From a virus, in the IMG/VR virus record IMGVR_UViG_3300031841_000872, positions 1 to 22,167 of that record: a DNA stretch of 22,167 nucleotides. One strand, written 5' to 3'. A model generated the notes under the pieces. It saw only the letters and a program-made list of their open reading frames with translations. It searched no databases and was not told the origin of the DNA. Below are positions 12,563 through 20,806 of this stretch, one piece after another; the first letter of the stretch is position 1, and each line of letters begins with the position of its first letter. A program made the translations under genes and the position numbers.

Positions 12563-12922
12563 TTAAACTGGTGCACCGTTGACATCTAGGCCAAGGCTAA
12601 GTTGGTTTGTTTCAAAGTCCCACTGCTGCGGGATATAACAGAACGTATTGCGATCCCAGCTGAGAATATCTATACAGTCAGTGTATTCAGAAGCTACTGC
12701 CATGCATACCCCACAGAGCGTGGGATCACCTAGCATGAGTAAGAAGTCTCCTTCTTGCCACTCACTGAGTACTCGTCGTGCTTTACTTATCATTTCAGCA
12801 GTATCATAAGGCTTGCGAGGATTTCCAAACACAGCCAATAAATGACCATATCTTTTTGCATCTGATAAATCTTTCTTACTATCTGCTTGAACTACGTAAA
12901 CTGTTTTCATATTATGCTGCAT
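12563..12922 (-). CDS. Conserved phage protein, unknown function
   Basis: This 119-residue protein contains KTVYVVQADSKKDLSDAKRY, GHLLAVF, ISKARRVLSEWQEGDFLLM, GDPTLCGVCMAVASEY and ILSWDRNTFCYIPQQWDF. The pattern of a KDLxxAxRYG start, a central GDFLLxxGDPxxxG motif and a final WDRxxxxYxP recurs in small phage proteins next to replication genes. I know of no assigned function. The start overlaps the polymerase stop (ATGCAGCATAA) with AGAGGAAG 5 nt upstream. Met5 at 12910 is the alternative. No membrane segment is seen. Four Cys occur but not in a zinc pattern. Confidence 0.72.
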   Translation of the reverse strand: MQHNMKTVYVVQADSKKDLSDAKRYGHLLAVFGNPRKPYDTAEMISKARRVLSEWQEGDFLLMLGDPTLCGVCMAVASEYTDCIDILSWDRNTFCYIPQQWDFETNQLSLGLDVNGAPV

Positions 12923-14741
12923 TTTTCTTCCTCTTTTTTGGAGCAGGAGCTATCAACGCCAACTCATAGTTAGTTAAATATGTGGACGCACCTACGGCCA
13001 CTGCTATTTTTATAGCTTCCTTATAATACCAGTCGTAATCTAAGTCACTAGGGTGCGTTTCAAAATTTTCTACGGTCATACATGCTCTTGCCCCATCGCT
13101 CTTTGGTACTTTATTATCGTTTTTATAATACCGAATAGGCTCTACTGATTTCGTACTTTGGTACCACCTGACAACCTTACCTAGATATTTACCTTCCTGT
13201 TTACCCCCACCAGTCACGTTTCTCGCGCTTATAAAGTCCTTAAAAGGAGCTGCGTAAATAGTCTCACCCAAGGGTACTCCATGGGCTAACCACGCTCCTA
13301 CAGCGTCTGAGCATACCTGAGCAGTGGGGTTCTTACGTAGGCTAAGAGGAGCATAAATACCTTTTACTTTGAGGCTCCTGTCAGGCTTAACTGCTATGTA
13401 ATTATTAACGTCTTTCATCGCTAATGCTCGGTATGGTGTAAACTCAAACTCAAATTTAGAGAGCTCACTAAACTCTGCTATGACTTGATCTACTTCGTCG
13501 GCTCTATGCTGATCGTATCTCACAGCTATGCCGTCAGTGTTTGCGCTTAAAGTTTCAACTCCTAACTTTTCTAACCTTTCTATTAACATTAACAGTGTCA
13601 GCTGACCAGTTAGAGTGACAGCCAGCATCAAGTCTGGAGAATACAGTACGCTGTAGCGACTCGCTAATTTACCGAATGTACCGTTCAAACTAATTTTAAG
13701 AGTCTCACTGGTAGTCTTATCACCGCTAGCTTTCGCTGCTAATCTCTCAGTATAAATCTTTTGATATTCTGCTGTAAAATCTGAACCCAAAGACTGCGGA
13801 GTAAAACCACATTTAATAATGATTGAGGGATAAAAAGAAGCTGCATCTATCTCACCCATTATTTTGCCGTCAGCTATGTAACATACTTTTTTGTCATGAA
13901 CTGAGTGTATGCCACCTACTCCGAGTTGATATCTACCCACTCCATGAGATACGATCTCTTTACCCAGGAACTCGGGCAATATGACATGACCAGTCTTTTG
14001 ATTCATAAAGAACACATGTGAGGTTATTTTTTCCAACAGCTCTTTGAGCGCATCACTCTCAAAACTGAGGAAAGCAGGAGGCATATACTTGATGGTTTTG
14101 GGTACAGTATTTTCTCTCTTTTTCAAACCCATGCTTTTAATGTAAGCCTGTTCTGCCATTTGAGAGTCTGACTTACTCCGCAGGTCAACACCATACCTAC
14201 GACTCATCTCAACTCTCAACATTATCTCAGACTCTAACATGCTTAATAATCTTTCAGTAGTGTCAACATCATTATGACAATAATCTAGTATCTGCTGTTC
14301 CTGATAAGGTTTCACCATGGTGCCATGAGCTAGGGGCATGTCTTGCAAAGTAGGCATGTGCATCCTTGCACCATATGCCTTGAGTCCCACGAAAGATGGG
14401 GCGACCTCAATAAGATCTATATGGTCTTTTAAATGTTTACGTAAATGAAATTTCTTATAAGCCTCCCAGTATGGTGTTCTATTGACGATCAAATCATCTG
14501 CTATTCTTTTTATTTCTAACTCTGACCTGCCCGCACAAAATGCTGAAACAATGACATCATCAAAATAAATAGAGTTAAATCCAACAAAAGTTTTATTACC
14601 TTCTGCTATAAAATAACGCAGTTTTTCCACCGCATCCTGTTCATGACGCCATATATCAAACCACTCCCCTGTCTCAATGCACTTAGCACTGAGCAGGGTG
14701 CGGTTCGGTAACGTCTCGGTGTCAAATACCCACGTACTCAT
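12912..14741 (-). CDS. Family B DNA polymerase with 3'-5' exonuclease
   Basis: At 609 residues this is a compact replicative polymerase. The exonuclease domain has ExoI FDTET (D7, E9), ExoII FNSIYFDD (N56, D61) and ExoIII YCHND (Y154, D158). The polymerase domain has motif A EIDAASFYPSI (D299), motif B KISLNGTFGK (K349, N353) and motif C SANTDGI (D403). The usual family B motif C is DTDS. Here the first Asp is Asn and the Ser is Gly, but the Asp equivalent to the main catalytic one remains. The length is well below that of T4-type enzymes and no terminal-protein insertions are evident. It must copy DNA containing bulky thymidine derivatives if the upstream pathway works. It is coupled to the DUF3310 gene by ATGA. 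Confidence 0.92.
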   Translation of the reverse strand: MSTWVFDTETLPNRTLLSAKCIETGEWFDIWRHEQDAVEKLRYFIAEGNKTFVGFNSIYFDDVIVSAFCAGRSELEIKRIADDLIVNRTPYWEAYKKFHLRKHLKDHIDLIEVAPSFVGLKAYGARMHMPTLQDMPLAHGTMVKPYQEQQILDYCHNDVDTTERLLSMLESEIMLRVEMSRRYGVDLRSKSDSQMAEQAYIKSMGLKKRENTVPKTIKYMPPAFLSFESDALKELLEKITSHVFFMNQKTGHVILPEFLGKEIVSHGVGRYQLGVGGIHSVHDKKVCYIADGKIMGEIDAASFYPSIIIKCGFTPQSLGSDFTAEYQKIYTERLAAKASGDKTTSETLKISLNGTFGKLASRYSVLYSPDLMLAVTLTGQLTLLMLIERLEKLGVETLSANTDGIAVRYDQHRADEVDQVIAEFSELSKFEFEFTPYRALAMKDVNNYIAVKPDRSLKVKGIYAPLSLRKNPTAQVCSDAVGAWLAHGVPLGETIYAAPFKDFISARNVTGGGKQEGKYLGKVVRWYQSTKSVEPIRYYKNDNKVPKSDGARACMTVENFETHPSDLDYDWYYKEAIKIAVAVGASTYLTNYELALIAPAPKKRKKNAA

Positions 14742-15085
14742 TTGTCGTAAGGATCCTTATAATCGCCATCAAACTGTTTGAAACGTAGATCACCTTTATA
14801 AACGTCTGGGTCTTGATTGACGTAAGCACCAGATGCCTCTTCATCTTGATGCTTAGCCTCCTCAATCTCAATCAACTTATCAATAAAATGCTTAGCCTTA
14901 TTGAGATCTTGAACAGTGTAGAATGGATGCTTAGCTTTGAGGTAACACCGCTCAATATACTTAGTAGCGCACGCCTGGAAATAGTTAAGACCGAGCCTAG
15001 ACACCCTGTCCCAGTGCTCCTCACCACCAGATGTAGACTTATAATGATCACCACCGATCTGAGTCTTATTCACTTTACTTGTCAT
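14738..15085 (-). CDS. DUF3310 protein
   Basis: This 115-residue protein starts with KVNKTQIGGDHYKSTSGG. LGLNYFQACATKYIERCY, DLNKAKHFIDKLIEIEEAKH and an acidic tail follow. The GGDHY plus Y-x-x-xxATKYIxR plus DLxKAxHYIDxLI pattern is that of DUF3310, a family frequent in phages and sometimes called nucleotide kinase-like without solid proof. No P-loop is present here, so I would not infer kinase activity. The start lies inside the end of the HD nucleotidase gene (11-nt overlap) with GAGGAG just upstream, and its stop overlaps the polymerase ATG, so all three are translationally linked. Confidence 0.85.
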   Translation of the reverse strand: MTSKVNKTQIGGDHYKSTSGGEEHWDRVSRLGLNYFQACATKYIERCYLKAKHPFYTVQDLNKAKHFIDKLIEIEEAKHQDEEASGAYVNQDPDVYKGDLRFKQFDGDYKDPYDK

Positions 15086-15569
15086 TAATCATCTCCTCAA
15101 TAACATCAAATAACAATCTCTCGCGACCTTTAAGAACCATTTGCCGAGCATAAGACATGTAAGTGTCAAAGATCTTTTTAAGTTTGATATTCCCTAGGTT
15201 GACCTCAGTAGCACAGAAAATAGCTCCGGAAGCAATGTCAGCTAACTTGAGTGTTCTTTTATCTTTTTCGTTTAGACTGGGGAACGCCACACCTGCTTCA
15301 CGCATAAGACTCTCCTCTAAGTCACTTACTTGAGAAAGTATCCCATACTCTCTTTTAGCAGGACTGGGTATGTCTCCGGTTATATGTTCGCTGAGATCAT
15401 GGAATAAAGCTGCCATCATTAATGCTTTACTGGCGGTGATATCCATTAATAGGCACAGCATCGCAACATTATGTGAGTGATGACCAACAGTGTCTTGAGT
15501 GATGGTAGTGACGGTATGAAATCTTTTAACTGCAGATCCGTCAATAATAAATTGAAGTGTCTTTTCCAT
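15075..15569 (-). CDS. YfbR-like HD-domain 5'-deoxynucleotidase
   Basis: This 164-residue metal-dependent phosphohydrolase has VKRFHTV, then VGHHSHNVAMLC (His31), the HD pair ALFHDLSEHITGDIPSPAKR (H57, D58) and a later LADIAS Asp. The set and the spacing LFHDxxExxTGDxPxPxK are those of YfbR, which hydrolyses deoxynucleoside monophosphates. The function in this phage is probably pool adjustment. Given the hydroxymethyl-dUMP pathway next door, removal of dTMP (or dTTP) so that the modified base is used is an attractive but unproven role. It is the first gene after promoter P4, with AAAGGAG 7 nt upstream. A DatZ-type dATPase was considered but lacks its partner genes here. Confidence 0.85.
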   Translation of the reverse strand: MEKTLQFIIDGSAVKRFHTVTTITQDTVGHHSHNVAMLCLLMDITASKALMMAALFHDLSEHITGDIPSPAKREYGILSQVSDLEESLMREAGVAFPSLNEKDKRTLKLADIASGAIFCATEVNLGNIKLKKIFDTYMSYARQMVLKGRERLLFDVIEEMINDK

Positions 15570-15630: not shown

Positions 15631-16602
15631 TTATTTTACTCGCCTCTCTAACCAATTACGAGTGGCTAATCTCCAGTCAGTAGCAGCTATATCGTCAACT
15701 ATATGCATGCCATCGCTTACTTTTTCTTTGCGCTCTTTATAAATTTGAGCCATGGGTGCGGCCACCTCTTTGAAGAATGAATGTTTATAATTACTCGTCA
15801 CATTTTGAAAAGTGCAAAACTTTTCACAATCTTCTAAAAAAGCATTCATATTCATATTGTCCATTATTGGGTAAGCACTTACTGAGCCTGCATTATATGC
15901 GTCATGGTCTTTACTCGGAGGAGACTGTAAAAAGTTTCCTATGTTGTAAAGCTCAGTATATAAATGAAAGTTAACCGAGATTTGATTATACCGACCTACT
16001 TCTAAAGCCAATGACCTCGCAACAAACTCTTGCAGGAAACTGAAGTGAACTGCGTTAGCCCCGTAAGCCCCCCACCAAAGATCATTTGACCTGTTGAACA
16101 CTGTCATCGTCAGCTTATTATCAATCACCTGGAACACTATCTGAGTATTACAAGCTTTATCCAAGGTCTTTTTATATAAATCATGTGAATCCCACATCTG
16201 CACAACAGCTTGGCGAGTATCAGGATCTTTCCTTAATAATTCAATCACATCAAGCAATTGATCATGACCGAAATGCTGCCTCCATCGCCATCCGTATGCA
16301 GCGTTGAAATCTACTTTATTATCAGAAAAATTTTCCATATTTTTATTAAACTGTTTGACAAACCTTACATCTTTCCGACCTGCTATCATCCAGATCGATT
16401 CCATAAGATGAAAAATAGGGTTAGCGTCTCTTTGCGGATCAAACAGAACTCTCTCCTCGGGATGACGATAAGTCGTAGTTACTATCTCAGGATAAACCAG
16501 TGCAGGGCCATTACGAGTCTTTTGAGGTTTCAAGTTAAGAACTTTAAACTTCCAGAAAATTTCTGAAAATGCCTCGTTTACATTATCAACTATTAATTCC
16601 AT
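15631..16602 (-). CDS. Thymidylate synthase homologue, probable dUMP hydroxymethylase
   Basis: This 323-residue member of the thymidylate synthase fold has YGWRWR (103-108), DTRQAVVQMWD (128-138), catalytic Cys151 in DKACNTQIVFQV, RSNDLWWGAYGAN (171-183) and NFHLYTELYN (211-220). In canonical ThyA the catalytic motif is PCH. Here it is ACN, and the FN region is GANAVHFS, as in phage hydroxymethylase-type relatives. Retention of Asn (N183), where dCMP hydroxymethylases use Asp, points to dUMP as substrate. The product hm-dUMP would feed the modification cluster, of which this is the last gene. The ATG at 16602 directly follows the previous stop with GGAG 9 nt upstream. An upstream ATG at 16650 has no support. 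A true thymidylate synthase cannot be excluded from sequence alone. Confidence 0.85.
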   Translation of the reverse strand: MELIVDNVNEAFSEIFWKFKVLNLKPQKTRNGPALVYPEIVTTTYRHPEERVLFDPQRDANPIFHLMESIWMIAGRKDVRFVKQFNKNMENFSDNKVDFNAAYGWRWRQHFGHDQLLDVIELLRKDPDTRQAVVQMWDSHDLYKKTLDKACNTQIVFQVIDNKLTMTVFNRSNDLWWGAYGANAVHFSFLQEFVARSLALEVGRYNQISVNFHLYTELYNIGNFLQSPPSKDHDAYNAGSVSAYPIMDNMNMNAFLEDCEKFCTFQNVTSNYKHSFFKEVAAPMAQIYKERKEKVSDGMHIVDDIAATDWRLATRNWLERRVK

Positions 16603-16603
16603 C

Positions 16604-17533
16604 TTAAAACTCCATCTCTGGTCGATACATAGTCTTAGGTTTTCCCTCACCTAAAACAGTCCTGGTATATTTACTGTACTCACACATAACATTTTGAACG
16701 TCATGTAAGGTGAGGTCAGTGATCTCTAAATTAGACTTGATATTTTCATTAATACTCATAAGCTCGCTATTGAAATCATCCTGTGACCAAGAAGCATAAG
16801 GACCTCTGCCTAGCAGGTAATTCAAACCTTTACTACTGCCAGGACCGATAGGTGCGTAGCTATAAAGATCACTAGCCTTGGATAATACAGCGTCGCCATA
16901 AGTTAAATCAGCTGCTACTTGCCCAGCTATAAATGTGCTTATACCAAAACAGCCGGAAAGCACTCTTACAAAGTCAGCTATTGAATTATGCTCAAAGAAA
17001 GAGCCATCAATATCATCTCCTATGTCAAGTGTAGGTTCAATAATATACCTCGCTAAAGATAAAGACTTGACTGACCCTACATCTTTTTTAGTGGGGTAGA
17101 CCATGTAAGCTCCGGAGTAAACTTTCTTGCCATTTAAACTTTCTCTAAATTCTTCAATAGACTTAGAAAATTTACCAGTGTCAAAATCTCCTGCAGCTTG
17201 GAGTAATATCCCTTCATCGATCAAATGCTGCAGGGTCGGTGGCCAATTAATCAAACGACATATCAATAAAACGAACCATAAATCCTGCCTGTAATTTTCA
17301 GTAGGGTAAAGATATATCACATTCTTAATGATCCATTCACTAACTCGATCATCCTTCCTTCTAATATTAGTGAACTTATATTTACTTAAAATAGGATCAA
17401 GAGTCAATGCACCGTTAAATCTATTTTCTTTAGCGATGCGCATAGCCTCTCGCTCCCACACAAAATAAAGTAATGCGTTCGTTGATATAACAGTATCTTT
17501 ATCAGGCATGTTATACGGATTACTATCGATCAT
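16604..17533 (-). CDS. aGPT-Pplase superfamily enzyme, probably clade 2 (thymine hypermodification)
   Basis: This protein of about 309 residues belongs to the alpha-glutamyl/putrescinyl-thymine pyrophosphorylase superfamily, which is related to helix-hairpin-helix DNA glycosylases. Near the N-terminus is KFTNIRRKDDRVSEWI, the family signature FxNxxRxxDRVS. Later come YAPIGPGSSKGLNYLLGR (hairpin-like GPGxxxGL loop) and, at the C-terminus, DVQNVMCEYSKYTR and LGEGKPKTMYRP. In known phages such enzymes displace the phosphate from phosphorylated hmdU in DNA and attach an amine or amino acid. The next gene upstream encodes the matching kinase. A TTG at 17539 extends the frame by two codons, but the ATG at 17533 has AAGGA at a normal distance and is preferred. 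It overlaps the kinase gene by 11 nt. Confidence 0.83.
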   Translation of the reverse strand: MIDSNPYNMPDKDTVISTNALLYFVWEREAMRIAKENRFNGALTLDPILSKYKFTNIRRKDDRVSEWIIKNVIYLYPTENYRQDLWFVLLICRLINWPPTLQHLIDEGILLQAAGDFDTGKFSKSIEEFRESLNGKKVYSGAYMVYPTKKDVGSVKSLSLARYIIEPTLDIGDDIDGSFFEHNSIADFVRVLSGCFGISTFIAGQVAADLTYGDAVLSKASDLYSYAPIGPGSSKGLNYLLGRGPYASWSQDDFNSELMSINENIKSNLEITDLTLHDVQNVMCEYSKYTRTVLGEGKPKTMYRPEMEF

Positions 17534-18104
17534 TTTCAAAGTCCTTTATTATTTTGAGTAATGGGGGATGAGTGTCAATGTGACTTATGTCGACTACTCT
17601 TAAATCGGCATCAGTTAAATTCTTACGGCAGTTTGAAACACTCTTAAACTTGTCAATTAGATTTTTCGGGTTGAACTCTTTTTCATTACCTGCTTCTTTG
17701 CGTCGCCCGATAACCCTGTCTATGCATTTATCTTGAGGAGTGTCTAAGAATGCATAAACAGTGCATCCTGTTTCCTCAGTCATTTGAGTAACTTTACCGC
17801 CCAGACCTGAAGCAGAAACTAAAGCACCCTCGTAAAGCACATGCCCATATTTATGAGCCTCTAATATTCTTTCAGCAATCGCGAGCTGAGTGGGCATACT
17901 ATCAGTCCCCCCACAAACATTATCATATTTACCGATAATGTAAATAGGATTGTTTATACCGACTACTTTACAATCGACACCGTAACCCATAATCTTATCA
18001 TCTTTTTTCAAGATTGAGTGTGGGTAATCATTTATAAACCTTCTGACAGCAGTCGTCTTACCACTGCCGAATGTTCCTGATAATCTCAATATTATATTAG
18101 CCAT
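17523..18104 (-). CDS. P-loop 5-hydroxymethyluracil DNA kinase
   Basis: This 193-residue P-loop kinase begins MANIILRLSGTFGSGKTT (Walker A at 10-18). IYIIGKYDNVCGGTDSMPTQ follows, a motif I associate with phage 5-HMU DNA kinases. Then come HVLYEGALVSA (Walker B-like region with Glu), CTVYAFLDTP and CIDRVIGRR (lid arginines). The enzyme phosphorylates the hydroxymethyl group of hmdU already in DNA, making it a leaving group for the aGPT-Pplase step. The frame is open back to 18173, but that part lies inside the previous gene. The ATG at 18104 has GAGGGGAGC about 9 nt upstream and the P-loop close to the N-terminus, so it is the start. Genes for two aGPT-Pplases flank it, which supports DNA rather than nucleotide as substrate. 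Confidence 0.86.
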   Translation of the reverse strand: MANIILRLSGTFGSGKTTAVRRFINDYPHSILKKDDKIMGYGVDCKVVGINNPIYIIGKYDNVCGGTDSMPTQLAIAERILEAHKYGHVLYEGALVSASGLGGKVTQMTEETGCTVYAFLDTPQDKCIDRVIGRRKEAGNEKEFNPKNLIDKFKSVSNCRKNLTDADLRVVDISHIDTHPPLLKIIKDFENDR

Positions 18105-19104
18105 GTAAAAAATGCTCCCCTCGGAATGGTGTACCTGTGTTTGCAAATATAGCCGCATGCTTATTAATGTCAACCTTATTATTAGAACACTCGGCTCTAA
18201 GCCATGTCGGTAATAGCTCAGATCTCATGTCCTTAAACTCTTCAACATCTAAGCCTTTTTCTTCTGCCCATTCAATACGTGACCATGCCATATCAGCGTA
18301 GACTCCTGGATAACGTCTTCCAAAGAAATGATTTTTGAAGGTGCAGAGATTACTTTCAAAAGTGAAGTTACCCACGTTAGGTACTTCGGGATTTAACTGA
18401 GAGTAACGATCTAAATAAGAACTCGCCGCAGTGTTCAGCCAATCACATATTTTAGAAAAGTCTGGATAATCTCCTGTGAAATCATTTTTCATACGCTTGT
18501 CCCAGACGTACTGATCAGCACCGTATAAAAACATCATACCATTACGATGAGACTTACTGCCTGATTTATCTTCAAATAATAAGTCATCACAGTCTGCACC
18601 GAATCCATTCAAGTATACGTATTCCAGGTAACTAAATGCTGACAATCTGCCAAAAGAATCATACCCATCTCTGACCCTCTTCCACAGTGTTTGATAATCA
18701 CCTGTGAGCATTTCCTCTTGAGAGTTGAAACCATCTAACAGGCTCGCATAAGACTTGATAGCTTCAACTGTATCTTTCTTTTGATATCTGCGGTCAGTGT
18801 CGTATTGCAGAGTTTCCCAGTTTTCATCAAACCAATTAGTGAACTTAGTCAAAGCTGCCCCAGCAGGAGGCACCTCAGGAAGCTGCTCTAGAAGCCTTAA
18901 TGATGTTATGGGGTTTTGGGTCATGCCATTCAAGAAAGCATACCAGAGACGCTGCTCAGTATCCCAGTTATACCGCTTAGCCAGTTCAGGCATGTACAGG
19001 TAAACTAATCCTGGCATAATGCCATAATTTAAGTTTAAAGTGTAAAGCGCATCGAAGTATTTTATTCGGTTTTCTCTCAACCGATAATCTATATCAGTTA
19101 TCAT
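18097..19104 (-). CDS. aGPT-Pplase superfamily enzyme, probably clade 3
   Basis: This 335-residue protein has AFLNGMTQNPITS (56-68), WFDENWETLQYDTDRRYQKK (91-110), DDLLFEDKSGSKSHRNGM (173-190) and, near the end, WSRIEWAEEKGLD. I recognise the NGMTQNPxTS...DTDRRYxKK...DxSGSKSHRNG series as the alpha-glutamyl/putrescinyl-thymine pyrophosphorylase group often called clade 3. It clearly differs from the second paralogue at 16604-17533, so the two probably do different steps, for example adding different groups or forming a complex. The start has AAAGGAA about 6 nt upstream and follows the methyltransferase-like gene by 2 nt. The stop overlaps the kinase start by 8 nt. Direct enzymology of this clade is limited, so the exact reaction is uncertain. 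Confidence 0.78.
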   Translation of the reverse strand: MITDIDYRLRENRIKYFDALYTLNLNYGIMPGLVYLYMPELAKRYNWDTEQRLWYAFLNGMTQNPITSLRLLEQLPEVPPAGAALTKFTNWFDENWETLQYDTDRRYQKKDTVEAIKSYASLLDGFNSQEEMLTGDYQTLWKRVRDGYDSFGRLSAFSYLEYVYLNGFGADCDDLLFEDKSGSKSHRNGMMFLYGADQYVWDKRMKNDFTGDYPDFSKICDWLNTAASSYLDRYSQLNPEVPNVGNFTFESNLCTFKNHFFGRRYPGVYADMAWSRIEWAEEKGLDVEEFKDMRSELLPTWLRAECSNNKVDINKHAAIFANTGTPFRGEHFLHG

Positions 19105-19106
19105 AG

Positions 19107-19853
19107 TTATTCCTTTACTGGTTGTAAGCCTTTATAACCTTCTCCTGCTACAATCTTTTTAAATCTGACAGGAGAATATTCTAAGTTAGTAGGCTCTATT
19201 TTAATATAGAAACAGGTACCATGGTAAGCCATGGCAGTTACCCTATAACCATATTGTTCTTCAAAGTAATCGCTAAAGACTGTCGCATAACTCTCTCTAT
19301 CATTAGAAACATCATGCCCTCTAGCAATTAAATTAGGTACTGTAAAATGCCATCTACAGCTTGACCCATCAGTAATGATTATAGCTTCAGGTTTATGAGA
19401 TATCATTCTTTCCATCTCAGTTCTCCATTTACCATTACTGTGCTGTATCAATGTGAAAAATGGGAAGTCACAGACATAGATATCAGCTGGCATAACTCCG
19501 AGTCTTTCGTGGGCATCTTCTTTAGAGACTACAACATTAGAATAATCAGCCATGCAATACTTGAGCTGATTAACACAGTCATCATCTAACTCTCCGATAA
19601 AATGATGCTGAGGTTTAACTACATGCTGTAAGGCAACCGAAAACACTCCGCATCCTCCGAATGGTTCTTGAATAACCGAAGCTCCTTTATGTTCGTTTAG
19701 AAGAAACTCCTGACATAAAACATTCTTTCCGGTCTCCTGCCAACGCTTATTAAGATATTGATAATAGCTGTAGTCGCCATCAGGCATCAGCTGAGGCTCT
19801 CCTGGCAAAAGTTCAAAGTCATATTGCTGAAGTATTTTCCATTTAGTCGTCAT
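19107..19853 (-). CDS. Methyltransferase-like Rossmann-fold protein in modification cluster
   Basis: This 248-residue protein has a SAM-binding motif I-like EPFGGCGVFSVAL (63-75), an acidic ELDDD after the next strand (88-92, ribose-contacting position) and VCDFPFF (127-133) at the motif IV position. There, DNA amino-methyltransferases have (D/N/S)PP(Y/F), so D-F-P-F differs by one residue. The last third (CFYIKIEP) fits a closing beta strand. The most likely identity is a SAM-dependent methyltransferase acting on DNA or on the hypermodified base. It is coupled by ATGA to the PLP enzyme and lies 2 nt before the clade-3 gene, so a role in the same pathway is likely. I do not recognise an exact family, and a degenerate or non-methylating role is possible. 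Confidence 0.6.
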   Translation of the reverse strand: MTTKWKILQQYDFELLPGEPQLMPDGDYSYYQYLNKRWQETGKNVLCQEFLLNEHKGASVIQEPFGGCGVFSVALQHVVKPQHHFIGELDDDCVNQLKYCMADYSNVVVSKEDAHERLGVMPADIYVCDFPFFTLIQHSNGKWRTEMERMISHKPEAIIITDGSSCRWHFTVPNLIARGHDVSNDRESYATVFSDYFEEQYGYRVTAMAYHGTCFYIKIEPTNLEYSPVRFKKIVAGEGYKGLQPVKE

Positions 19854-20806
19854 GCTGGGTTCTCCGTATAAAATGGTCTGATAACTTTTCTATTAGCAGC
19901 ACTACCGACTATCCAGAAACCTGTACTGTCATCATAATCAAGTTCGTTATTTTCTTTTAACCATCTCCACATCTTAGCCTCGTACGTAGGATGGAAGGTT
20001 ATATCTTCATGCGTCTCACCAGTAAATTTTTGAGAGTAAGAAGCATATTTGTTGTCGTGTAAAGAATAATGCTTCCACCGGAATGGTAAATTTTTATAAT
20101 TTACTCCCATAATTTCAAGACGTTTTGCCATCCAGTCTCTTTTATCAGGACCTATGGCGATTGTAAATAATTCTTTTAGGTTGTTGCAGTTGCGACTGAG
20201 ACCTAGCACTACGCTAGTCAAAGAGTTACAAGATCCTGCAGGGACGATGAGTCTCTCAACTTCATCAGGCATATTACTAGTCTGATGCGCTCCGACCTCG
20301 TGAAATTTTTGAACAGTTTCACCATCATATTTAGTGTGAGGTACAGTGATACCATATTCTACGACAAGTGAAGTAGGCTGAGTCAGATCTGCAACTCTCT
20401 TTTGAATGATAGGATTATAAGGACCGTTCGCATATTCAAATACCGCACCGAACCCTGCAGCGATCCTAGGATTGTCATGCGTAAGAACAGTATGGGGTTT
20501 GCTATAAACGACCTGTCTATTTTTGAGACCATAATGAGAGCCCACGATGGCACTCATGCTCAGCTGAGGAGACTGAATAGACGCTCCTGTGACTATGTGA
20601 GACTTACCCTCTTTGAACCGATTGACATACCATATCAGCTGTCTCATTTTAGAACCATTAGGACCGCTATAACCGAGCGGTGCGAAATAGTCTTCTCTCT
20701 TGAACCACACCCCAGCTTTATTCTGCCAAGGAGTTAGAGTGGCCAAGTAGTTTTCCCACTTGACCTCCTCTCTATTTATCGCCAGCTTGTTAAACACGCT
20801 ATCCAT
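19850..20806 (-). CDS. PLP-dependent enzyme, fold type II (thymine tailoring)
   Basis: This 318-residue enzyme resembles ACC deaminase, D-cysteine desulfhydrase and tryptophan synthase beta. VWFKREDYFAPLGYSGPNGSK leads to the presumed Schiff-base Lys53 (GSKMRQL, compare GNKxRKL). VTGASIQSPQLSMSAIVG follows, the usual substrate-binding Ser/Asn segment. IVPAGSCNSLTS (187-198) is the phosphate-binding loop. Related PLP enzymes occur in phage thymidine hypermodification clusters, where they are thought to decarboxylate an amino acid already attached to the base, leaving an aminoalkyl group. Adjacency to both aGPT-Pplases and the kinase supports that role over general metabolism. The ATG overlaps the previous stop by 8 nt. 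Substrate specificity cannot be read from the sequence. Confidence 0.82.
   Translation of the reverse strand: MDSVFNKLAINREEVKWENYLATLTPWQNKAGVWFKREDYFAPLGYSGPNGSKMRQLIWYVNRFKEGKSHIVTGASIQSPQLSMSAIVGSHYGLKNRQVVYSKPHTVLTHDNPRIAAGFGAVFEYANGPYNPIIQKRVADLTQPTSLVVEYGITVPHTKYDGETVQKFHEVGAHQTSNMPDEVERLIVPAGSCNSLTSVVLGLSRNCNNLKELFTIAIGPDKRDWMAKRLEIMGVNYKNLPFRWKHYSLHDNKYASYSQKFTGETHEDITFHPTYEAKMWRWLKENNELDYDDSTGFWIVGSAANRKVIRPFYTENPA

Follow-up and report, generated by a model that had tools for sequence, protein, structure and literature searches.

The window, meaning the whole stretch of DNA analysed here, is a virus record of 22,167 bases; it is a fragment, the longest relatives reaching about 55-60 kb. 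Within it, a closely packed series of genes, all on the minus strand, runs from a PLP enzyme to a DNA polymerase:

19850-20806, minus strand: fold-type-II PLP enzyme of the ViI type (phrog_3650, 3.4e-78; 35% identity with the Vi01 protein across 99% of its length; lysine of the NGSK motif present)
19107-19853, minus strand: protein X, predicted SAM-methyltransferase fold (AlphaFold pLDDT 87; RsmD/RlmL/Trm5-type matches, Z 14-14.7)
18097-19104, minus strand: ADDT, aGPT-Pplase clade 2 (PF18724, 4.6e-18)
17523-18104, minus strand: P-loop 5-hmdU DNA kinase (PF18748, 1.5e-6), overlapping the end of ADDT by 8 bp
16604-17533, minus strand: HEL, aGPT-Pplase clade 1 (PF18723 "HMUDK_hel", 3.9e-38)
15631-16602, minus strand: thymidylate-synthase (TS) homologue, probable dUMP hydroxymethylase (PF00303, 5.5e-20; phrog_5131, 4.6e-103)
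15075-15569, minus strand: HD-domain protein like the 5'-deoxynucleotidase YfbR, with a probable role in pool control (PF12917, 3e-13; placed as M6 gp059)
14738-15085, minus strand: DUF3310-like protein
12912-14741, minus strand: PolB-type DNA polymerase (phrog_1252, 1.2e-159), where M6 has PolA

The original prediction described two divergent aGPT-Pplase paralogues on either side of the kinase gene. The arrangement itself holds: open reading frames at 16604-17539 and 18097-19104, both on the minus strand, enclose that of the kinase (17523-18173, minus strand, with a likely start at 18104), and the signature motifs NGMTQNP, SGSKSHRNG, FTNIRRKDDRVS and GPGSSKGL are all present. The PLP enzyme and protein X, which lie directly upstream, had been overlooked. 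As part of the whole interpretation developed below, which is held with moderate confidence, the locus is a thymidine-hypermodification cassette with an M6-like layout and ViI-type chemistry, and the gene set is largely of a known kind. Where dS is measurable, dN/dS against two relatives (L006 and L007) is 0.04-0.15 across the genes of PLP, X, ADDT, kinase, HEL and TS, which points to purifying selection, strong in the case of ADDT. That one of the two aGPT-Pplase genes is an unneeded or decaying relic, a possibility raised earlier, was rejected on the basis of values of about 0.04-0.17 for both HEL and ADDT.

The window ADDT matches PF18724, "Amino acid:DNA transferase", with 66.2 bits against a cut-off of 26.2; PF18724 and PF18723 correspond to aGPT-Pplase2 and aGPT-Pplase1 in the naming of other annotators. 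By BLAST, it is 38-39% identical to the proteins of Bane1 (3e-51) and Montesquieu (2e-52) and 26% identical to that of Vi01 (ViI, 6e-26), and it has no BLAST match to the ADDT of M6 or phiW-14. These similarities place it in the ViI-type subgroup, nearer to Bane1 and Montesquieu than to ViI, so that they do not establish serine as its substrate. Support for the view that clade 2 contains the amino-acid transferases, as previously stated, comes from M6, where ADDT (gp051) hits the structure of the PaMx11 glycinyltransferase, 8z2m, at 1.2e-90, whereas HEL (gp055) has no match in the PDB. The window ADDT is thus a putative amino acid:DNA transferase that would act on 5-phosphomethyl-dU (5-PmdU).

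HEL belongs to PF18723, "5-hmdU DNA kinase, helical domain" (131.9 bits, cut-off 25), and does not keep the ADDT motifs. No sequence homology between the two families is detectable by hhalign of their alignments (probability 0.3%, E 0.19), sequence and profile searches of the PDB with HEL and ADDT gave nothing useful, and scanning the genome contigs with a profile of HEL yielded no relative. The only structural link is therefore a fold match. The all-helical model of HEL (pLDDT 91) has as its best PDB match the PaMx11 5-PmdU glycinyltransferase 8z2n (Z 11.2, rmsd 4.2, 230 aligned residues), a comparison that reaches ADDT by way of 8z2m and 8z2n, members of the M6 ADDT family, and that concerns helical folds, which easily attain middling Z scores. 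Further matches are 8-oxoguanine glycosylases, other HhH-GPD proteins and the queuine salvage enzyme DUF2419. The match favours a shared fold: HEL and ADDT probably have a base-handling fold in common, and "paralogue" is fair in that distant sense alone.

The presence of a second aGPT-Pplase type had been regarded as puzzling, yet both families are standard in such phages. They occur together in M6, YuA, ViI, phiW-14, Pam3 and RHph_I65, and both have been published for M6-like (PMC9476957) and ViI-like phages (PMC10458263). The gene for HEL stays close to that of the kinase, with a median gap of 3 bp and a gap below 300 bp in 81 of 84 related contigs, and kinase, HEL and TS are all present in 50 of the 52 ADDT contigs with enough flank. 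Of the 13 named records with HEL that were tested, 12 also have a TS homologue, the exception being Nodularia phage kac65v151. Conversely, cassettes with a TET/JBP oxygenase (Bane1; L119, L120, L077 and L172/L232) carry ADDT and a P-loop kinase but neither TS nor HEL, and HEL is absent even from those that keep ADDT, PLP or X. Microbacterium phage SirVictor has TS, kinase and a HEL gene overlapping that of the kinase. In SirVictor and the Nodularia phages, ADDT was not detected by PF18724, a family model of limited reach that also misses the Montesquieu ADDT. The co-occurrence of HEL with the TS route and its absence from TET/JBP-route cassettes indicate that it goes with TS and kinase, not with amino-acid transfer.

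HEL is thus probably a DNA-reading or base-flipping partner of the kinase step, and not a second amino-acid transferase. It would help the kinase to find and flip 5-hmdU where every T may be hmdU. The 5hmdU DNA kinase favours TG and TC contexts (PMC6449724, PMC7653180). The window kinase shares 27% identity with its counterparts in M6 (gp054) and Vi01, in each case at about 4e-9. Among the related contigs, no fusion of kinase and HEL was found; the sole fusion is that of PLP and ADDT. Some observations run against a role of HEL in the kinase step. The solved structure closest to it in fold is that of an amino-acid transferase (8z2n), and the residues invariant in the family alignment include polar ones (D, H, Q, N, C, E and K) that look catalytic. 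Besides, two cassettes have no HEL beside the kinase (L147 and L164), and in the Nodularia record HEL is present but TS is not. L147 and L164 are HEL-less TS-route cassettes on short contigs, with TS directly after the kinase (L147:5265-6856 and L164:8739-10341).

As a side observation, 5-hmdU kinases such as those of M6 (gp054, L185), YuA (gp13, L178) and L183 (orf32) are widely misannotated as "terminase small subunit", an error spread by the name of phrog_800.

Alternatively, HEL might itself transfer an amino acid to DNA, differing from ADDT in its substrate or in the sites that it selects, and 5-PmdU would then give rise to two adducts in the phage. The fold match to the PaMx11 glycinyltransferase over 230 residues, the many invariant polar residues and the low dN/dS would all suit such an enzyme. 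However, HEL lacks the ADDT motifs, no homology to ADDT can be detected in its sequence, and it follows TS and kinase and not ADDT: SirVictor and the Nodularia phages have HEL with no ADDT detected, and Bane1 and other TET/JBP cassettes have ADDT but not HEL. For each of M6, ViI and phiW-14, a single main hypermodified base is reported (PMC6449724). A second transferase is therefore unlikely.

The tie to the TS route also fits an enzyme that sorts, clears or reverts 5-PmdU, for example to thymidine, in phages with hmdU at every T. HEL tracks this route and is missing from TET/JBP-route cassettes with the same ADDT, PLP or X, whose phages would never need it. In phiW-14, thymine is said to be formed from hmU after replication, according to older work, which agrees with this idea. 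If true, it would explain the TS-route tie, the absence from TET/JBP cassettes and the fact that only a fraction of T is hypermodified. But there is no obvious gene for a reductant partner, no cofactor site was identified in the helical, glycosylase-like fold, and the pattern is also accounted for if HEL flips bases for the kinase. We regard a sorting or reverting enzyme as decidedly improbable.

Both the PLP enzyme and the search for a radical-SAM gene bear on the nature of the final base. The window PLP enzyme resembles the ViI enzyme along its full length, conserves the catalytic lysine and shows scarcely any similarity to its M6 counterpart (BLAST E 0.05). Homologues are present in 34 of 39 relatives; the five contigs in which none was found (L023, L034, L038, L056 and L061, or G003, G007, G010, G014 and G015) all keep ADDT, kinase, HEL and TS, and these phages may carry an undecarboxylated adduct. 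In one related phage, PLP and ADDT form a single protein of 712 residues (contig G036, L232:3353-5491), which is good evidence that the two act together. This fusion gene adjoins a ParB-like gene, a TET/JBP oxygenase gene and a P-loop kinase gene. The PLP enzyme is a candidate for decarboxylating the amino acid once it is attached to DNA, and its chemistry could also be elimination instead of decarboxylation.

Scanning of window proteins revealed neither a radical-SAM nor an acetyltransferase family, in line with the original prediction. For radical-SAM, this absence proves little by itself because the window is a 22-kb fragment and its relatives reach about 55-60 kb. A partner hidden elsewhere in this phage type was rejected as well: neither PF04055 nor the M6 radical-SAM protein as query gave a match in any of the 39 relatives' contigs, many of which are 50-60 kb long, and both queries find the enzymes of YuA, Pam3 and RHph_I65. 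The cassette accordingly has no radical-SAM isomerase of the M6-type 5-NedU pathway, and it has what marks the ViI-type 5-NeOmdU pathway, a ViI-type PLP enzyme with its catalytic lysine and no radical-SAM gene.

ViI DNA bears 5-(2-aminoethoxy)methyl-dU, and M6 DNA bears 5-(2-aminoethyl)-dU (PMC6449724). Given the ViI-type PLP enzyme, the ViI-type ADDT, the PLP-ADDT fusion and the lack of radical-SAM genes, the likeliest product in the window phage, by analogy with ViI, is a decarboxylated thymidine derivative of the aminoethoxymethyl type. A simple aminoethoxymethyl-type base or an amino-acid adduct had been proposed in preference to a carbon-carbon-rearranged product. The non-rearranged, aminoethoxymethyl-type part of this proposal stands, while the raw adduct becomes less likely in the window, since a decarboxylase candidate is present, even though five of the 39 relatives lack PLP.

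Protein X has no Pfam, PHROG or NCBIfam match, and NCBIfam gives no informative name for HEL or ADDT either. The model of X is closest to E. coli RsmD/YhhF (Z 14.7), with RlmL-type proteins also matched. The sequence EPFGGxG, corresponding to SAM motif I, is invariant, as is DFPxF in the place of motif IV. X occurs in about 20 viral contigs and, more distantly, in two others (L119 and L120), and there is a weak match in the Pam3 cassette. Where no contig end intervenes, it nearly always adjoins ADDT, with or without PLP, in TS-route as well as TET/JBP-route cassettes (relatives including L171, L173, L054, L061 and L119). Its absence from most relatives that keep PLP marks it as an add-on and not as a core step. 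The predicted fold makes it a candidate extra tailoring enzyme that may methylate the adduct, or it may be an ordinary DNA methyltransferase. On the contig with the PLP-ADDT fusion, a gene whose product is 80% identical to the window X lies about 8 kb from the fusion gene.

The methyltransferase fold of X, its position beside ADDT on both routes irrespective of PLP, and the lack of PLP in five of 39 relatives allow another view of the product, in which it is undecarboxylated or methylated, X methylating the amino acid and PLP doing something else. The full-length resemblance of PLP to the ViI enzyme, with the lysine kept, and the absence of X from most PLP-keeping relatives, as expected of an add-on, speak against this view, which we consider quite unlikely.

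The reading that we hold to be reasonably probable combines an M6 layout with ViI chemistry, HEL acting in the kinase step and an aminoethoxymethyl-type base as the product. The TS homologue would make 5-hmdUMP, which would then enter the DNA. The P-loop kinase, assisted by HEL, would phosphorylate selected 5-hmdU bases, HEL most likely flipping or selecting hmdU for the kinase with a glycosylase-like base-handling fold that it probably shares with the transferases. ADDT would swap the phosphate for a free amino acid, presumably serine by analogy with ViI. Decarboxylation by the PLP enzyme would turn the adduct into a base of the aminoethoxymethyl type, with no rearrangement by a radical-SAM enzyme, and X might add a methyl group.

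The closest layout is that of M6 and YuA, which share the order kinase, HEL, TS, HD, DUF3310 and DNA polymerase, have ADDT and a fold-II PLP gene upstream, and contain both aGPT-Pplase families. Unlike the window, M6 has a radical-SAM gene, Nmad5 and PolA instead of PolB, and BLAST scarcely, if at all, relates the M6 ADDT and PLP to those in the window. ViI (Vi01) shares the full-length PLP similarity, the ADDT subgroup, the presence of HEL and kinase and the lack of radical-SAM, but its genes lie dispersed across 157 kb and do not form one cassette, its HEL and ADDT are longer, and X is a feature of the window cassette. PaMx11 gp46 (PUGT; 8z2m, 8z2n) represents the M6 ADDT family and gives the best fold match of HEL, yet neither ADDT nor HEL of the window matches it in sequence, even when profiles are used. 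TET/JBP-route cassettes (Bane1 and Tonitrus; L119, L077 and L232) have ADDT in common with the window (PMC11955845), and the new loci among them (L119, L077 and L232) also have PLP and/or X. They differ from it in a different P-loop kinase, in lacking TS and HEL, and in that hmdU is presumably made on the DNA by the TET/JBP oxygenase.

One contig, IMGVR_UViG_3300047121_000347 (101,830 bases; L028 and L041), contains two different copies of the whole cassette, with HEL proteins 58% and 55% identical to that of the window; it probably represents two phages joined in assembly.

These results settle which member of the look-alike pair encodes the transferase and supply a decarboxylase candidate, which makes the product predictable. 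They also offer a comparative clue to the function of the clade-1 aGPT-Pplase, which follows the TS route and the kinase and not amino-acid transfer. The PLP-ADDT fusion and protein X suggest that tailoring modules move between TS-route and TET/JBP-route systems, which is useful in the search for new DNA bases.
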